Shown here in pieces: positions 1,893 to 30,773 of a stretch of DNA of 43,707 bases. Origin of the DNA: an uncultured Algisphaera sp. (GTDB lineage: Bacteria > Planctomycetota > Phycisphaerae > Phycisphaerales > Phycisphaeraceae); assembly GCA_938015655.1 (NCBI GenBank), contig CALLPP010000076.1, positions 1-43,707 on the forward strand, read 5' to 3'. A program made the translations under genes and the position numbers. Every line of letters begins with the position of its first letter. Positions within the stretch are counted from its first letter, which is position 1. The notes under the pieces are model-generated. The model was not told the origin of the DNA. It made no database searches and was given only the letters and a program-made list of their open reading frames with translations.

Positions 1893-2744
1893 TTACTCCC
1901 CGGGGATGTACGAGATTACCCCGTCCCAAGGGCTGCTGGCCGTCGCGTACAGCTTTTTGGGAATCCGCCCCGCCCCGTGGGCCAGCCGCCCGGCCTCCAG
2001 TGCCTGACGCATGGCGTGAGCCATGGCCACCGGGTCCTTCGCATGCGCAATGCCGGTATTCAGCAGCACCCCGTCGGCCCCCAGTTCCATGGCCCGGGTC
2101 ACGTCGCTGGCCGTGCCCACCCCCGCGTCCAAAATCACCGGGTAGTCCGCGTCGCCCTCTTTTAGGCTCTCCAGAATGATCGCAATCGCATTGGGGTTCA
2201 GCACGCCCTGCCCGCTGCCGATCGGCGAGCCCGCGGGCATCACGCTCGCGGCGCCCGCCTCTTTCAGCTTCATCGCCATCACCGGGTCGTCGCTGGTGTA
2301 GCACAGCACCTCGAAGCCGTCGGCCACCAGCGTCTTGGTCGCTTCCAGCGTGCCCACCGGGTCGGGCAGCAGCGTCTTCTTGTCGTTGAGCACCTCCAGC
2401 TTCACCCAGCTCTTACCGGGATTATCCAACTGATCCAGGATCTCGCGGCCCAGCCGAGCCACCCGCACCGCGTCGTCGGCGGTAAAGCAGCCGGCAGTGT
2501 TGGGCAGCACCGTATAGCGCGACGTGTCCAGGTAATCCAGCAGCGACTTGCCGTCGGCGTCGATCAACCGCTCACGCCGCACCGCCACGGTCACCGCGTT
2601 GCAGCCCGAGGCGTCGAGGGCCTGCTGCATCTGCGGATAGTCGGCGTACTTTCCAGTGCCCACGATCAGGCGTGAGGCGAGGGTGTGCGAGCCAACTCGG
2701 AGCGGCGGCGAAACGGGACCGGCGTGCGGGGGGGGCGTGGGCAT
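1893..2744 (-). CDS. thiG: Thiazole synthase ThiG
   Basis: [96 protein letters not shown]; start at MPTPPPHAG. Confidence 0.95.
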
Positions 2745-2826
2745 GAGCGACAGTCTAGAAAGCAAAACGCCCCGGCACGCCGCCGCCGCGAAAAGCGAAC
2801 CGGGCCCGGGAGCCGCAAGGTATTCT

Positions 2827-3420
2827 ATGCACCGCGTGCCCAACACCTCCCCGCTTAAGTTCATCCGCGGTTTCGCCGCCCGGCCTCGACAAGTCGGCGC
2901 AGTCATGCCCAGCGGGCGGACCCTGGCCGCCGCCATGGTCGGCGGGCTCAAGCTGCGTCCCACCGGGTCGGTGGTAGAATTCGGCCCGGGCACCGGCTCG
3001 TTCACCCAGGCGGTCCTCAACGCCCAGCCCGCCGGGGGCCGCTACCTGGGGGTCGAGCTAGCCCCCGAATTTGTGTCGCATCTGCGTGAGCGTTTTCCCG
3101 ACCAAGACTTCGCCCAAGCCAGCGCCGCCGACGCCTTTGACCTGCACGCCGACCGCGGCCTGCCCCCCGCCGACGCGGTGCTGTGCGGGCTGCCGTTTGC
3201 CAGCCTGCCAGCACAGGTCCAAGACGGCGTGGTGCATGCCGCCGACCGGCTGCTAGCCCGTGGCGGCACGTTCCGCACGTTTCAGTACCGGCACGCCTTC
3301 CACATGGTGAACGCCAAGGCCTTCCGCGCCCGCATGGACGCGCTCTTCGGCCCGGGCCAGTGCGTGGCCAAGGTGCTGCGCAACGTGCCGCCGGCGTGCG
3401 TCATGAGCTGGACGCGCTGA
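2827..3420 (+). CDS. SAM-dependent methyltransferase of phospholipid N-methyltransferase type (COG3963-like)
   Basis: [54 protein letters not shown]-terminal RNVPPACV. Confidence 0.8.
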
Positions 3421-3433
3421 CGCCCCGCGCGGT

Positions 3434-3637
3434 TTATCCGCCGCCCACCAGCGTCACCAGCTCCAGCACATCCCCGTCGCTCAGGGCGGTCTGCGCATGA
3501 TCGTTTTTGGGCACGACCGCCTCGTTGAGTTCCACAGCCACCGCCTGGCCCGCCAGCCCCAGGGCCTTCAGAAGCTCATCGATACGCATGACCGAGCCGG
3601 AAAACACGCGGATTTCGCCGTTGACGGTGAGTTTCAT
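3434..3637 (-). CDS. thiS: Sulfur carrier protein ThiS
   Basis: 67 aa beta-grasp protein, [12 protein letters not shown]...[17 protein letters not shown] with terminal GG. Confidence 0.93.
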
Positions 3638-3701
3638 GGCCCGATGGTAACCCGATCGTTACTCTGGTCCGGCTGCTTCTGCGCCCCCACCGAGCCCCCC
3701 C

Positions 3702-4409
3702 ATGCCCGACGCCTCGCCGCCCCGCACTTCAGCCCCTCTTCCGCGGCCCGCCGCGCCCCAGACCAACGCGACGATGTCCGAGCCGGCCACCAGCCGGATC
3801 TACGACCTGTGGGCCAAGGCCTACGACGGCACCTTCGGGCGCCTGGTTCACAAACGACAAACCCGAGCTATCCAGGAAATGCGACACCGTCCCGGCGACC
3901 GGGTACTGGACCTGGGCATCGGCACCGGCATGTCGCTACACGAATACCCCGACACCCTCCAGGTCGTGGGCATGGACCTGTCCCCGGGCATGTTAGCCAA
4001 GGCCGCCGAAAAAGTAACCGAGCACGGCCTGTCTAACGTGTCGCTGGTGCTAGGCAACGCATTGGAAACCCCCTTCCCCAACCACCACTTCGACCACGTG
4101 GTCATCAGTCACACCATCAGCGTGGTCAGCGAGCCCAACCGCCTGCTGCGCGAAGCCAAACGCCTGGTGAAGCCCGACGGCACCATCGTGGTCCTCAACC
4201 ACTTCCGCTCAAACAAACCCGTTGTCGGCTGGTTCGAACGGGTGGCCAACCCGCTGTTTGTCAAAATCGGCTGGCGCAGCGACCTCACGCTCGAAGAGTG
4301 CCTGGAGGGCGTGGGCCTGCGGGTGCTCTACCACTTCAAGCTCAGCGTGATCGACGTCTGGCAGATCGTGGTGCTTTCGCCGCGGAGCCTGCCTCTGGTG
4401 GTCCGTTAG
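3702..4409 (+). CDS. Class I SAM methyltransferase, Rhodobacter-type phosphatidylethanolamine N-methyltransferase-like
   Basis: IYDLWAKAYDGTFGRLVHKRQ, VLDLGIGTGMSLHEYP, VVGMDLSPGML, VVLNHFRSNKPVVGWFERVANPLFVKIGWRSDL; alternative start at 3774. Confidence 0.8.
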   Translation: MPDASPPRTSAPLPRPAAPQTNATMSEPATSRIYDLWAKAYDGTFGRLVHKRQTRAIQEMRHRPGDRVLDLGIGTGMSLHEYPDTLQVVGMDLSPGMLAKAAEKVTEHGLSNVSLVLGNALETPFPNHHFDHVVISHTISVVSEPNRLLREAKRLVKPDGTIVVLNHFRSNKPVVGWFERVANPLFVKIGWRSDLTLEECLEGVGLRVLYHFKLSVIDVWQIVVLSPRSLPLVVR

Positions 4410-4465
4410 TACGGCGCTCGCCGCGGCGCGGCCCACCGCAACACAGCAGCGGGTAAAGTCGCACC

Positions 4466-7400
4466 ATGCCACGCCGACCCGCCCGATCAGGGACCCGATC
4501 ACGACCCGTGATGACCGCCGCGTTGCTGGCCGCGGCGCTCACCCGCCCGGGCCTGGGCCAGGCCCCCGCCCCCCTACCGCCCGCGACCCTCGACGCCCCC
4601 TTCGCCGACCCCCGGCTGGACCTGGACCTCACGCTGACGGCGCTGCGCATCACCGCGTGGGACGACGGCGGCGCTCAGATGCTGCTGCTGGAAAACGACG
4701 CCCGCTTCGTGCTGGGCGCCCGCGGCTTCACCGCCGACACCGCGGTCGTGCGGATCGAGACCCAAGCCACCGACACCGGCCCGGTCCGGCACGTCGCGGG
4801 CTTTTTCGAAAACGCCCGCCCGCTGCCCGGCACCGGGCCGATCACCGGCGGCGGGCCGCGGCTGCTGGTGACCGCCGCCACGAGCGGAGCCATCCATCTA
4901 GACCGCCCCGGCGTCCTGAACCGGGCCAACGCCGCGCCGGATCACCCGCTGATCGCCCCGGCCCGGGCCCGCCTGGCCGCCCGCCGCTCCGCAGCACAGC
5001 AGCCAGGCTGGACCCCCGCCTTCGACCCCAACGACCCCGGCGGGCTGCCGGCGGACGTGGCCGCGCGGCGGGCCAGCCGCCGAGCCCGGCTCGCCCGCGA
5101 GGGCGCCGCCCCCGCACCCGGCGTGGCCGCCCAGCTTCACAATCCCCCCCCCTCCAAACCCGCCGCCGCCCAGCCCGGTAACGCCCCGGACACAGACCCG
5201 CTAGAAGGTGCCGACTCGGGCATCCTTCCCGCCCGGGGGGTCGTGGCCTACACCACCGAGCGCTGGTCGGTGCGCCCCGGCGACGACGAGACCGCCGTCA
5301 CCCTCAACGGCGACGTGCGGCTAGTGTTCGAAGACCAGCGCGACAACCGGGTCGTCACCCTCCGCGCCGACCACGTGGTGCTGTTCTTGGGCGGCAAAGA
5401 CCGCCCGCCGCCCAACCTCCGGCCCGGAGCCGCGGGCCCCACCGGCCCCGAAGGCCTGCCGGCCGAATCCATTGCCGGGGTTTACCTCGAAGACCACGCG
5501 GTGATCAGCGACGGCGAATACACCGTGCGGGCCCCGCGGGCCTACTACGACCTGCAGCGCAAACAGGCCACGCTGCTGGACGCGTCGTTTTACACCTACG
5601 ACCGCGACCTCCGCGTGCCGCTGTACGTGCGGGCCGACGAGGTCCGCCAGACATCGGCCGCGGACTTCGCCGCCCGCGGCGCCACGCTCAGCACCAGCGC
5701 CTTCGCGGTGCCGCACTTCTCGATCGGCGCCGACGAGCTCACGCTGCGCCGCTACGACGCGCAAGACCCCAACGCGCCCAACGACCCCGCCGCCGCGGTC
5801 GCCGACACGTCAGGCAGCTTCTTCACCGCCACCGGCACCACGCTTAACACCGGCAAACAACCGGTGCTCTACTGGCCCTACCTCGCGGGCTACGGCCTGA
5901 ACACCCCGCTAAAACGACTGGGCGCCAACTTTTCCTCCCGCAACGGCGTCGAAGTGACCACCCGTTGGGACCTTTTCGCCCTGCTGGGCCGCCCGCGGCC
6001 CGAGGGCGTGGAGTGGGAAGGCGACCTGGACTTCCGCGGCGAGCGCGGCCCGGCGGTGGGCTCGCGCGGCCGCTACGAAAACAACCTCACCCGCGGCGAT
6101 CACCGCAGCTATCTGCTGCTAGACGACAGCGGCGAAGACGACGTGGCGGGCCGCGAGGTCAGCCAGCGCGACGCGGTGCGCGGCTTCATCCAGGCCCGCC
6201 ACCGCCAGCCCCTGGCCCGCGACTACCGCCTGTCGCTCGAAGGCGCGTTCGTCAGCGACCCGGGCCTGCTGGAAACCTTCTTTCCCAGCGAGGCAGCCGC
6301 GGCCAAACCCTTCGAAACCTCCGCCCACGTGCAGCGGCAACACGGCGCTACCTCCGTGGACCTACTGGGCGCCACCCGCCTCAGCCAGTTTGTGGAGCAA
6401 CAAGACCTGCTTCAGTCGCGCGGGTTCAGCGTGGAGCGGCTGCCCGAAGCCGCCCACCGCGTGATCGGCGGCACCCTTTTCGAAGACCGGGCCACCTGGT
6501 TCAGCGAGGCCCGGCTAGGCCAGTTGCGGATCGACCCGGGCGATGACGCCCCGGAGGACCGCGGATTCAACGCGGCCGATTCCGCAGCCCTGTTCGGCAT
6601 CGCGCCCGGTATCAGCTTCGAAGAGCGAGCCCGGGCCCTGAACCTGCCCACCGACACCGTCACCCGCCTGGACCTGCGCCAAGAAATCAGCCTCCCGCTC
6701 CACGGGGGCCCGGGCAACGCGTGGAACTTCACGCCCTACGCCACGGGCCGGTTCACCGCCTACGACGAGTCGTTTGAAACCTTCAATAACCAAACCAGCG
6801 ACGACCAGGTGCGGCTGCGCGGCGAACTGGGCCTGCGAGCTGGTACCCAGTTCGCCAAAACCCTTCCCGCGGTCCGCAGCGACGTGCTGAACCTCGACGG
6901 GATCCGCCACCTGATCGAGCCGTCGGCCACGGTGTTTGTCGCCGGCAGCACACTGGACCGCGGCGACCTGCCAGTTTTTGACCCCGAGGTCGAACAGCTG
7001 GCCGAAGGGGCCGGCCTGCGGCTAGGCCTCACCCAAACCCTGCAGACCCGGCGCGGAGTCGAAAACCGCCGCCGCACCGTCGACTGGCTCACCCTGCGCA
7101 CCGACCTGGTGCTGCGCAACACCGGTGACCCCGAGACCGTGCTCCCGCGCTTTGACAACTTCCGTCCCGAGTTCGCCGCCGGCGGGGATCATCTCTACAC
7201 CGAACTGCGGTGGCTGGTGACCGACACCCTGGGCTTCACTGGCGAGCTGACCCACGACCTAGAAACCGACGACGTGGCCCAGTGGCGGGCGGGCGCTACC
7301 CTCGAACACACCCCCCGGCTCAACTCCCAGCTAGCGTATTTCGAGATCGACGCACTGGACAGCCGACTGCTACGGGCCGGCTTTGATTACGCCCTGACCC

Positions 7401-21820: not shown

Positions 21821-21850
21821 TAAAAAAACCCCGCCAAGCCATGACGGGGT
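21821..21850 (-). terminator. Rho-independent terminator downstream of the actin-like gene
   Basis: Minus strand: CCCCGTcatggcttGGCGGGG TTTTTTT, about 40 nt after the stop of 21889-22941. Confidence 0.7.
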
Positions 21851-21888
21851 CGGGGAGAATCGAGTTGTTGACACAGCGCAACAGGTGC

Positions 21889-22941
21889 TTACTTCAGCTG
21901 CTGCCAGTAATCCATTGGCATGTCCATGGCCAGCTTCAGACCGCCGTTGCTGCCGCTGTAGAGCGGTTCTTCGACGACGGTGACCTTGGCCCCGCCGACG
22001 CGCTCGAGCTTGTCTTCGATGGCTTTGTTCAAACCCCGCATCAGGCCACCACCCCCGGCGAGGATAATGTTGTCGCGCAGGCGGTCCTGGAACTCGGGGT
22101 CGAAGGTGGCGATCAGCTTGTGGATGCCCTCGACGATGGGATCGATCAGAATCGAGCAGGCGTCGCGGATCTCATCGGTCACGTCGTGCATGGTGGGCTT
22201 GCCGTTGACCGGCATCTCGACCTCGATCTTGTCGGTGCCGCTGTGTACGAAGCCGTACTGCTCCTTAAAGCGCTTGATCATGTTCATGCTGACCGAGGCT
22301 TCGGGGTACTTTTTCTTGATGTTCTCCATCATCGCCTTGTCGACCGCGTCGCCGGCCACGTCAAGGCTCAACTGGTCATCCGGGCCGGGCACGGTGCCGT
22401 GCATCCGCACCAGGTCGGTGGTACCTGCGCCGATGTCCACCACCAGCACGTCGCTGGTGCGGTCCAGCCCGTAGGCCACGCAGAACGGCTCGGTACAGAT
22501 CATCACCGCATCGAAAATACCCTTGGTAACTTCGATGATGTCTTCTTTGTTTTTTCCGCTGGCTTCAGAGGGCACGCCCACCACGCCATAGACCTGCTCA
22601 CCGCGGGCGGGCTCAACCATCTCCACGAGGTAGTTGATCAGCTCTTTGGCGGCTTCGAGATTACGGCTACCGTCCTTATCCTCCTGGATGACCCCGACAC
22701 CCAACGGGCGGTACAGATCCAGGCTAAGGCGGTTGTCCAACGCATCTTTACCAAAAATGATATCGCGGCCGCCCAGGTGCTTGAGCGACACGGCATCCTT
22801 GGGCCAGCCGACGTACGACTCAACGTTCTTGCGCAGGCCGTTGGCAGCCGAAATGGCCGAGCGGCTGGTGCCCAGGTCGATGCCGATGAACAGGGCGTTC
22901 TCGGGCACGGCGCTGTCGTCGGTGGTTACGTTCTTGCTCAT
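21889..22941 (-). CDS. Actin-like ATPase, MamK-type (MreB/ParM superfamily)
   Basis: 350 aa; LFIGIDLGTSRSAISA phosphate-1, DVLVVDIGAGTTDLVRMHGTVPGPDDQ phosphate-2, NIILAGGGGLMRGLNKAIEDKL adenosine motif; start at MSKNVTTDD with AGGAGA upstream. Confidence 0.93.
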   Translation of the reverse strand: MSKNVTTDDSAVPENALFIGIDLGTSRSAISAANGLRKNVESYVGWPKDAVSLKHLGGRDIIFGKDALDNRLSLDLYRPLGVGVIQEDKDGSRNLEAAKELINYLVEMVEPARGEQVYGVVGVPSEASGKNKEDIIEVTKGIFDAVMICTEPFCVAYGLDRTSDVLVVDIGAGTTDLVRMHGTVPGPDDQLSLDVAGDAVDKAMMENIKKKYPEASVSMNMIKRFKEQYGFVHSGTDKIEVEMPVNGKPTMHDVTDEIRDACSILIDPIVEGIHKLIATFDPEFQDRLRDNIILAGGGGLMRGLNKAIEDKLERVGGAKVTVVEEPLYSGSNGGLKLAMDMPMDYWQQLK

Positions 22942-23149
22942 TGAAGCGGTCTCCTGATCAAAAGAGGGACCCCGGCCCAGTGGGGCGCGGGCGGTCCGGT
23001 GGGGGTTCCGGGCGGCGGGTTGGTGTGCGCCGCCACACAGCGGAACACTCATTCATACACGTTTTAGGCCCTTGGCGGGACACATCTGGGTACGGCGACT
23101 CCCTATCGGCCGTCCAGGGAGGCGCCCTAAACGCCGGGCACGGCGAGCA

Positions 23150-24013
23150 TCAATCGGGACGGGCGGCTTTCTTCGCGGCGTCTTTGGCCTTGGACTGAGC
23201 CGCCAGCCGTTTGGCCGCCTCGGACGGACCAGACTTGGCCGCCCCAGCGGCGGCCGCGATCGCCGCCGCCGCCCCGCCGCCACCGTGACGTTGGGCCGCA
23301 CCTTTTTGTAGCTTCACGTTGGTCTCGAAGATCTCTAGCAATACCTTGTCGTTCTTCGGGTCTTTAACCGACTTAATCATCGCCCCACGACGGCCGCCGC
23401 CACCACCGCCGCCGCCCCAGCCGCCGCCGCCTTTGCGAACCAGCGCTTTGAGCTCGGCCATCGACTTCTGCAGGTCCAGCACCATGTCAGTGAGCTGGCC
23501 CATCTGGGCGCTGGGGGTCCCCGCGGCTTGAGCCGCGGCCTGCCCCGGCGAGATCTCGCTGGTGAGGTTCTGGTTATCCCCGAACATCTTCGTCAGGGCT
23601 TCTTCGACCCGCTGAAGCGTCTGTTTTTCACCGCTGTCGCCGCCGCCGCCGGACAGCATCGCCTTGCTGACCACGCTCATCACGCGGTTACGGATCTTGT
23701 CGCGGTCGATCACCCGCACCCGCTGCCCGCGGTACTTGCGCCACAGGTCATCGACGTTCACCTGCGTCGAGCTGGTGTCGAGCGCCGAATCGATCGCGTG
23801 GGTGAAATCGTCGCTCTCAGCGGCGGGTCCGCCCGGAGACGGCACGGCCTCGGTCCCGGTGAAGTCCCCTAGGCGGGGGTCTTCGCGAAGCGACTCGCAG
23901 ACAATGTTGTTATTGCCCATCAGGGTGTAGGCCTGATCGACCGACGGGGCCTCGACGTGACCCTCGACCGGTTTCCCGGTGTCGCGCATTAAGCCTCGGA
24001 AGCGGTATCTCAA
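23150..24013 (-). CDS. Unknown protein with N-terminal GspF/PilC-N-like module, Gly-rich linker and Ala/Lys-rich tail; co-directional with and upstream of the actin-like gene
   Basis: (TTG start) YRFRGLMRDTGKPVEGHVEAPSVDQAYTLMGNNNIV; KGGGGWGGGGGGGGRRG; C-terminal AAKRLAAQSKAKDAAKKAARPD. Confidence 0.75.
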   Translation of the reverse strand: MRYRFRGLMRDTGKPVEGHVEAPSVDQAYTLMGNNNIVCESLREDPRLGDFTGTEAVPSPGGPAAESDDFTHAIDSALDTSSTQVNVDDLWRKYRGQRVRVIDRDKIRNRVMSVVSKAMLSGGGGDSGEKQTLQRVEEALTKMFGDNQNLTSEISPGQAAAQAAGTPSAQMGQLTDMVLDLQKSMAELKALVRKGGGGWGGGGGGGGRRGAMIKSVKDPKNDKVLLEIFETNVKLQKGAAQRHGGGGAAAAIAAAAGAAKSGPSEAAKRLAAQSKAKDAAKKAARPD

Positions 24014-24255
24014 AGTACTTCGGTCCTGATCGGAGGCGCAGATGCCTGGGGCGGGATCACCTCATCGGTGAACCGTCATCTTAACATCACCCCTTGCGGG
24101 GGATTCAGTGAACAATCTTCGCGTCGCGTGGGGTCTTCTAATCCGGCTCGGTCCGTCTCCGCAACCCTCCTGCTGTCACCCAGCCGCCGCTGAAGCCGGC
24201 CGAGCGGGCTGATGCACGAAGCCGAGGTTATCGGGCAAAGCCGCGGGCCGGGCCC

Positions 24256-24279
24256 GCGGGTCAGCGGGTCAGCGGGTCA
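24256..24279. repeat. Three tandem copies of the 8-mer gcgggtca over the 3' end of the esterase gene
   Basis: gcgggtca gcgggtca gcgggtca; stop codon of the minus CDS lies across the second/third copy, followed downstream (minus strand) by the palindrome CCGCGGGCC/GGCCCGCGG. Confidence 0.8.
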
Positions 24280-29493: not shown

Positions 29494-30465
29494 TCAAAAA
29501 TAGCCCACCAGATTGTGGCAGCGCTCCACGATTTCCGGCCAATCGATAAAGCCGAAGAAAATCACTTCGAAGGCAATCAGCCAGAAGATGTACCACTCCA
29601 CGCGATGTGAATCACGCGTGTTAATCAGATCAATCAGGGTCTGATTCGTCCGCCCAATCACCTGCCGTTTGTGCTCCATCACCGACAGCCGCTCGGTCAG
29701 GCCGTATTCTTCCAGCAGGTTGTCGTAAAGCCGTTTCAGCCCCGGACGCTCCCAAAGCACATCCGGCTTCTCATCGATCTGCACCCCGCCCAGCAGGTCC
29801 GCCTCCAAGGCAAGCATCTCTCCACTGTGCTGCATAAGCCGCCGGCGTTTACGGATCGGCGTGCCCTTCTCCCCCAACTCACGTGCAAGCACTCCGATGC
29901 GGTCGAGGTTGGATTGGATCCGCTCCTCGTACTCCTGAAGCACCACCGATTTCGATAACACGTCGGCCACCACCAGCAGCCGGGCGTCGGTCCCTGCGCC
30001 CAGTAAAATCTCTCCTGCAGTCACCCGATCCGACGCACCGACTTCGGTCACCAGCCGTACCGCCGCCTCCTCAGACCCCACCGCCGCGTCCGCGGGCTCG
30101 ATAAAGTCCTTCAACGTCTTTAAGAACGTCCGGCGGTCCTCGCGCGGGGTGTTAAAAAACACCGCCACCCCGAAGGGAACAACCACCGCCACCGCGTCGT
30201 CGCCCAGCCGGGCCACCGCTCGCCGACTCGGCGCCGCGGGATCCGCAGTGCAACCCGGCAGGTTCGCAAACTGCTTGAACCGCCGGCCCACCCTGACCGC
30301 GAACACCTCGAAATCCGAGGCATTCACCAACCGCACGTCGTTCAACTCTTCGCCAACCCCCGACCACTCCTGCGCCCCGGCAGGTTCGGCCCCGGCCCGC
30401 TGAGCCATCTCGGCAGTCGGCGTCGCAACTTTTACCACCACGTCCGCGGAATCTGTTTTCGGCAT
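29494..30465 (-). CDS. RMD1/DUF155 (RMND1/Sif2-like) family protein
   Basis: VVVPFGVAVFFNT, ADVLSKSVVLQEYEERIQSNLDRI, LLGGVQIDEKPDVLWERPGLKRLYDNLLEEYGLTERLSVMEHK, C-terminal RVEWYIFWLIAFEVIFFGFIDW. Confidence 0.88.
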   Translation of the reverse strand: MPKTDSADVVVKVATPTAEMAQRAGAEPAGAQEWSGVGEELNDVRLVNASDFEVFAVRVGRRFKQFANLPGCTADPAAPSRRAVARLGDDAVAVVVPFGVAVFFNTPREDRRTFLKTLKDFIEPADAAVGSEEAAVRLVTEVGASDRVTAGEILLGAGTDARLLVVADVLSKSVVLQEYEERIQSNLDRIGVLARELGEKGTPIRKRRRLMQHSGEMLALEADLLGGVQIDEKPDVLWERPGLKRLYDNLLEEYGLTERLSVMEHKRQVIGRTNQTLIDLINTRDSHRVEWYIFWLIAFEVIFFGFIDWPEIVERCHNLVGYF

Positions 30466-30773
30466 ACCCCATCGTGTCTCGGGGCCAGGGAGAAAGCAAA
30501 CCGGACCGGACATCTGCCGATAACTTCCAAGCCAGAAAGCCATGGTTCCGAAAAGAAACAGGCCGCGATCGCCTCATACACCGCCCCCCTAATAAGGTTT
30601 AAAAACTTTTTTTAAAAAGACTTATAAATCACCAAATTGCCTCCCCCCATTGGGGTTTCGGGGCTACACCCCTTGCCACTGGCCAACACTCATTCAAACC
30701 GTTTTTCTGACCGAACACTTTATTGGAGTGATACCGCCCCCTCCCTTCGCGTACGTCAGCCAGGGCTTAAACC

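Follow-up and report, generated by a model that had tools for sequence, protein, structure and literature searches.

Locus organisation

The gene pair lies in a 43,707-nucleotide stretch of DNA from an uncultured Algisphaera sp. (contig CALLPP010000076.1), the whole of which was analysed and is called the window hereafter. Both open reading frames (ORFs) are directly observed on the minus strand where a preliminary description of this DNA had placed them, and the 208-bp distance that it gave between them was borne out. In minus-strand order, the locus comprises the following features:

23150–24013, minus strand: partner gene (candidate adaptor), 287 aa, TTG start
23876–24013, minus strand: GspF-N-like module, residues 1–46 (hhalign; AlphaFold beta-beta-alpha-beta)
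23648–23797, minus strand: middle module (TQVNVDDLWRKYRGQRVRVIDRDKIRNRVMSVVSKAM), residues 73–122 (shared phylum-wide, hhalign)
23555–23623, minus strand: second conserved helix (QTLQRVEEALTKMFGDNQNLTSE), residues 131–153 (relatives and AlphaFold)
23432–23503, minus strand: coiled-coil-like helix, residues 171–194 (relatives and AlphaFold)
23387–23431, minus strand: Gly-rich linker, residues about 195–209 (read from sequence, relatives)
23300–23359, minus strand: C-terminal motif (PKNDKVLLEIFETNVKLQKG), residues 219–238, candidate actin-contact element (sequence conservation)
23153–23299, minus strand: Ala/Lys-rich tail, residues 239–287 (not conserved)
22942–23149, minus strand: gap between partner and actin genes, 208 bp (measured)
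22951–22955, minus strand: AGGAG, ribosome-binding-like site of the actin gene (read from sequence)
21889–22941, minus strand: MamK-family actin gene, 350 aa (NF040964 score; best solved relative 5ljw)
21827–21851, minus strand: terminator-like hairpin 3' of the actin gene (10 pairs, T7)

The actin gene runs from an ATG at 22941 to a stop at 21889; an alternative, longer in-frame ORF begins at 23052, and relatives favour the ATG. Its product scores 408.9 bits against the NCBIfam MamK family NF040964, barely over the curated cut-off of 400, and its closest solved structure is MamK 5ljw (E 1.3e-83), in agreement with the MamK-like actin originally proposed. In the alignment to 5ljw the nucleotide-binding motifs GIDLGTS, DIGAGTTD and AGGGG are intact, and the phosphate and adenosine motifs align with those of MamK. 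Against BeeR (NCBIfam) the protein reaches 225.3 bits, under the cut-off of 530 and thus outside that family, and against PilM 25 bits. An ordinary MreB is also encoded in the source genome. A plus-strand ORF antisense to the actin gene (21841–22944) was rejected as its shadow.

At 208 bp, the intergenic distance is greater than expected in an operon; it is 30–50 bp in several relatives and ranges from about 30 to 255 bp across loci. No sigma-70-like promoter pattern was found within the gap (22942–23149). The two genes may be cotranscribed. The terminator previously noted after the actin gene was found again, its call resting on position and T-run because a scan of shuffled DNA yields about equal numbers of sites. 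Elsewhere in the window, three 8-bp-spaced GACCCGCT-type repeats lie at the end of an esterase gene (24249–24279) and have no conserved counterpart ahead of the partner gene in relatives, and a DUF155 (RMND1/Sif2-Sif3) family protein is encoded at 29494–30543 on the minus strand (E 5e-29). Magnetosome genes (mamABIMQ and others) were not found among the 14 window proteins scanned against Pfam.

Modular architecture of the partner protein

The partner gene starts with a TTG at 24013 and stops at 23150 on the minus strand. That it is coding is certain, as its product is 32–87% identical across 12 other loci, and a T/GTG start ahead of RYRF is retained in its relatives. Neither the full protein nor the N-module alone matched a Pfam or NCBIfam family above its cut-off, GspF reaching no better than E 0.075, and these searches revealed neither T2SSF transmembrane domains nor a recognised DNA-binding domain in the partner. 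Foldseek, run against the PDB with the whole partner and with its N-module, likewise returned nothing at E <= 0.001.

Aligned with 20 GspF N-termini, the N-module reached an hhalign probability of 95% and a score of 35.9 (best of 50 column shuffles, 14.0), with the match spanning partner residues 10–45. AlphaFold models residues 1–46 as a beta-beta-alpha-beta fold (pLDDT 93), the only confident part of the protein, the remainder being mostly low-confidence helix. The GspF-N resemblance claimed in the preliminary description is thereby upheld; as the defining feature of the partner, it gave way, because the module is confined to this lineage and partners outside it lack the module, whereas the middle module and the C-terminal motif occur phylum-wide. 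These two parts, which sequence comparison indicates to be shared across the phylum, had been absent from that description.

The helical middle and the Gly-rich linker were found as described, the latter being Gly-rich in most relatives and variable in length. Just ahead of the Ala/Lys tail lies the conserved C-terminal element KVLLEIFETNVKLQ (residues 219–238), with the consensus K-x-L-L-x-x-I-F-x-x-N-L-x-L-R/Q. The tail itself is present, as had been noted, at residues 239–287; its proposed role as an anchor did not hold, since the tail is found in the closest species only and is absent or different elsewhere.

Conservation of the pair in related genomes

The pair had been put forward as a two-gene cassette whose conservation could be checked by a neighbourhood comparison, and the claim survived this comparison. 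Six of 61 related genomes encode a MamK-family actin and the identical six encode the partner; in every case the two genes adjoin and share a strand. Assuming independent genomes, the chance of such a coincidence is about 1 in 56 million, a figure that overstates the case because three of the six genomes share a genus. A scan of GTDB with the partner profile identified 12 loci, all from Planctomycetota and all with a MamK-family actin directly downstream (one of them, L088, breaks off inside the actin). By title, 11 of the 12 belong to Phycisphaera, Phycisphaeraceae, Phycisphaerae, Phycisphaerales or Tepidisphaeraceae, and one is a Planctomycetota bacterium. Partner and actin are the sole genes that the window has in common with the 12 other loci; among the flanking genes, none recurs in more than two other loci (12 loci compared).

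Could the two be unrelated genes that happen to adjoin? The 208-bp gap would allow it, and yet identical distribution together with constant adjacency amid otherwise unshared flanks refutes this explanation, to which we give next to no credence.

A tree that also included AMB-1 MamK, 24 MreB sequences and 70 other MamK-family actins from planctomycetes places the 15 actins of the lineage in one clade (support 1.0); its deeper branching is unreliable, as the MreB sequences did not serve as a clean outgroup. A plasmid collection that was searched contained MreB-like matches only, at under 30% identity, and a collection of phage records gave no match.

Parts of the partner shared across Planctomycetota

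MamK-family matches above cut-off are present in 93 of 399 Planctomycetota genomes. The full-length partner profile gave just 10 hits in these 399 genomes, either weak or close, and distant partners were therefore compared by module and position. To this end, 70 MamK loci were studied, which are not a random sample because 30 were taken as the best-scoring ones and 40 were chosen by hand from other families. The ORF directly upstream of the actin in the wider phylum usually has no GspF-N module; in some cases (L052, L059, L064 and L068) it carries a GGDEF-like domain (E 2.4e-17 in L064), by eye without the GGDEF signature.

The middle module of the window lineage aligned with that of ten wide-phylum upstream proteins with an hhalign probability of 93.6% and a score of 33.0 (maximum of 17.0 in 100 shuffles). 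With a profile built from these ten seeds, each of the top 37 matches fell in the ORF immediately preceding a MamK-family actin, and none in an MreB locus.

The C-terminal motif is the second recurring part. A pattern derived from the lineage occurs in the upstream ORF of 41 of the 70 MamK loci and in none of 24 MreB loci (0.65 expected after shuffling). A strict pattern matched 35 of the 70 MamK upstream ORFs, 0 of 24 MreB loci and 0 of 3,331 other ORFs; a loose one, which was widened after inspection of the sequences, matched 52 of 70, 0 of 24 and 5 of 3,331, respectively (0.28 expected after shuffling). We also built a profile from 49 wide-phylum motifs, in which the N at position 13 never varies, the pattern itself having required it, and L at position 16 is present in 43 copies. 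Applied to held-out loci, this profile placed 12 partner ORFs, two of them on virus contigs, ahead of the rest of 4,240 ORFs; the E-values are individually weak, and the window partner, at E 5.2, was yet ranked among the partners. Some upstream ORFs (L048, L050, L053 and L071) contain two or three motif copies of the GGGLLAGLVxENxALR type in tandem, separated by linkers, as would be expected of a multivalent filament binder.

In about 10 of the 70 MamK loci the upstream ORF has no recognisable motif, some of these loci lying at contig ends and some having another upstream gene. MamK-family loci without a recognisable upstream motif gene include L135, L138, L143 and L151, whose partner may be elsewhere or different. 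The actins of L129 and L146, which have a large, different upstream gene, group with AMB-1 MamK at a weak support of 0.525 and are possibly closer to the magnetosome type. Five loci of one lineage (L154, L155, L157, L158 and L161) encode long partners in which the motif is internal, with DDMPWE and PPPLERKK-type stretches after it at the end of the protein.

Related cassettes on virus-classified contigs

On three contigs classified as viral (L169, L176 and L177), small proteins encoded close to a MamK-family actin likewise end in the motif. The viral genes were checked on L169, and L176 and L177 are viral by the classification of the collection itself. On L169 (IMG/VR contig 3300009370_000045), the MamK-family actin (359 bits) is located between the major head protein and the terminase large subunit, and the product of the small gene directly before it ends KKLELLKVVFEENKQLRK; this pair (L169:2083–4032) is a phage-borne copy of the cassette. 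On the 273-kb contig L177 (both genes within 3679–4993), the gene just before the actin encodes a coiled-coil protein of 101 aa that ends VFERVLKENLDLRKQIEAI, and on the 114-kb contig L176 (both genes within 1926–4999), a small coiled-coil protein of 130 aa ending AIFQALIEENLRIREV is encoded three small genes upstream of the actin. The partner on viral contigs is minimal, consisting of a coiled coil and the motif, and the copies on virus-classified contigs suggest that phages use the same actin–adaptor system.

Comparison with known systems

Among the closest precedents are MamJ and Mg-1g50, whose genes lie upstream of mamK and which both tether magnetosomes (PMC10653835). The present pair resembles MamJ–MamK and Mg-1g50–MamK-II in the NCBIfam actin family, in the adaptor gene directly upstream and in the poorly conserved sequence of the adaptor (PMC10653835). 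It differs from MamJ–MamK in that MamJ is an acidic protein that works on magnetosomes, whereas no magnetosome gene accompanies the pair among the window genes scanned. AlpA–AlpC, a two-gene adaptor-then-actin operon of the Corynebacterium prophage CGP3 (PMC4446434), has the same gene order and is phage-borne; unlike the partner described here, AlpA binds DNA repeats, of which none is conserved at this locus, and the actin family differs. Arcadin-2, ParR and WH2 bind the groove of actin, through C-terminal helices in ParR and arcadin-2 (PMC5173319). As in ParR–ParM and arcadin-2–crenactin, the partner is encoded with the actin; the actin families differ, and a C-terminal helix on actin, with the binding demonstrated for those pairs, is proposed here. 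BeeR of Verrucomicrobiota (PMC11929497) is the next-closest actin family (225 bits), is likewise non-magnetotactic and has an N-terminal extension, whereas the score is below the cut-off of 530 and PMC11929497 describes no partner.

At the level of modules, residues 10–45 match the N-terminus of GspF/PilC proteins, which belong to type II secretion systems and type IV pili; in these proteins, unlike in the partner, a T2SSF transmembrane domain follows the N-module. The eukaryotic WH2 motif is LLxxIxxGxxLKKV. Like it, the C-terminal motif combines a short amphipathic helix with a subsequent basic end of the L-K/R type, and tandem arrays occur in both; the spacing is one residue longer and N replaces G. 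No Pfam family matches the C-terminal motif. In five stretches that bear it, the Pfam WH2 profile produced no hit at E <= 10, so the likeness to WH2 is one of resemblance.

An actin-plus-adaptor reading and its alternatives

We propose that the pair works as a single functional cassette, in which a MamK-family actin works with an adaptor whose variable N-terminus would pick cargo or site and whose C-terminal motif would contact the actin, and assign this reading, drawn from sequence comparison and analogy, a probability of roughly two in three. It is put forward because one short motif tracks one actin family across diverse partner architectures, down to the minimal viral partners. In detail, the downstream gene would give rise to a filament-forming MamK-family actin and the upstream gene to an elongated adaptor. 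The folded N-terminal module, GspF-N-like in this case, may select the cargo or cell site, and is followed by the conserved middle module and coiled coil and then by the flexible Gly linker. The amphipathic C-terminal motif could contact the actin, perhaps in its hydrophobic groove, like ParR on ParM and arcadin-2 on crenactin. An adaptor or anchor had been suggested for the partner before; the idea fits the precedents, with the charged tail no longer serving as the anchor and with binding between partner and actin still what we infer. Docking of the GspF-N module on a secretion or pilus machine is conceivable, though we attach little weight to this idea.

The partner could instead regulate polymerisation as a nucleator, sequesterer or depolymeriser and carry no cargo, its N-module serving merely for dimerisation or localisation. 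Arcadin-2, which depolymerises crenactin through its C-terminal peptide (PMC5173319), sets an example, and the tandem copies in some partners resemble arrays of monomer binders; we nevertheless regard a regulator as unlikely, as the diversity of N-terminal domains (GspF-N-like here, GGDEF-like in L052, L059, L064 and L068) is better suited to targeting. A cassette for DNA segregation like parMRC or alpAC, with the partner on DNA repeats and the actin moving the DNA, would share the two-gene logic of an adaptor upstream of the actin as in alpAC and would agree with related cassettes on virus-classified contigs. This is rather improbable, given that a centromere-like repeat array upstream of the partner is not conserved in the 11 loci examined, that the partner has no recognised DNA-binding domain and that the window contig looks chromosomal. 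More doubtful still is a secretory role, in which the partner would be a component of type II secretion or of a pilus and the actin a PilM-like cofactor: several GspF-like genes in the genome and the GspF-N resemblance itself speak for it, whereas the actin belongs to the MamK family (408.9 bits) and not to PilM (25 bits), the scanned neighbours include no secretion genes and partners outside the lineage lack the GspF-N module.

Returning to the actin-plus-adaptor cassette, a broader form of the proposal is that Planctomycetota and their viruses share an actin–adaptor system defined by the motif, the latter being a bacterial counterpart of WH2, that is, a portable actin-binding tail, single or tandem, on exchangeable cargo modules (GspF-N-like, GGDEF-like or none). 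For this broader form we see the odds as even.

Novelty and significance

Neither the pair nor the motif is described in the literature searched on MamK or actin in planctomycetes, a search mostly confined to papers outside subscription, so that the undescribed status first claimed stands within this scope. The partner family, the motif and their spread appear to be new, the actin family and the adaptor principle being already known, and the cassette is apparently a widespread, undescribed actin-plus-adaptor system.

Planctomycetota are noted for their unusual cell organisation, and we know of no function for the MamK-family actins of non-magnetotactic bacteria. A conserved, co-encoded partner with a shared tail motif provides a handle on these actins, as it predicts both a binding element and an interaction, and the variable N-termini of the partners offer a route to the cargo. 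Should actin binding by the motif be borne out, a bacterial phylum and its viruses would share a portable actin-binding motif.
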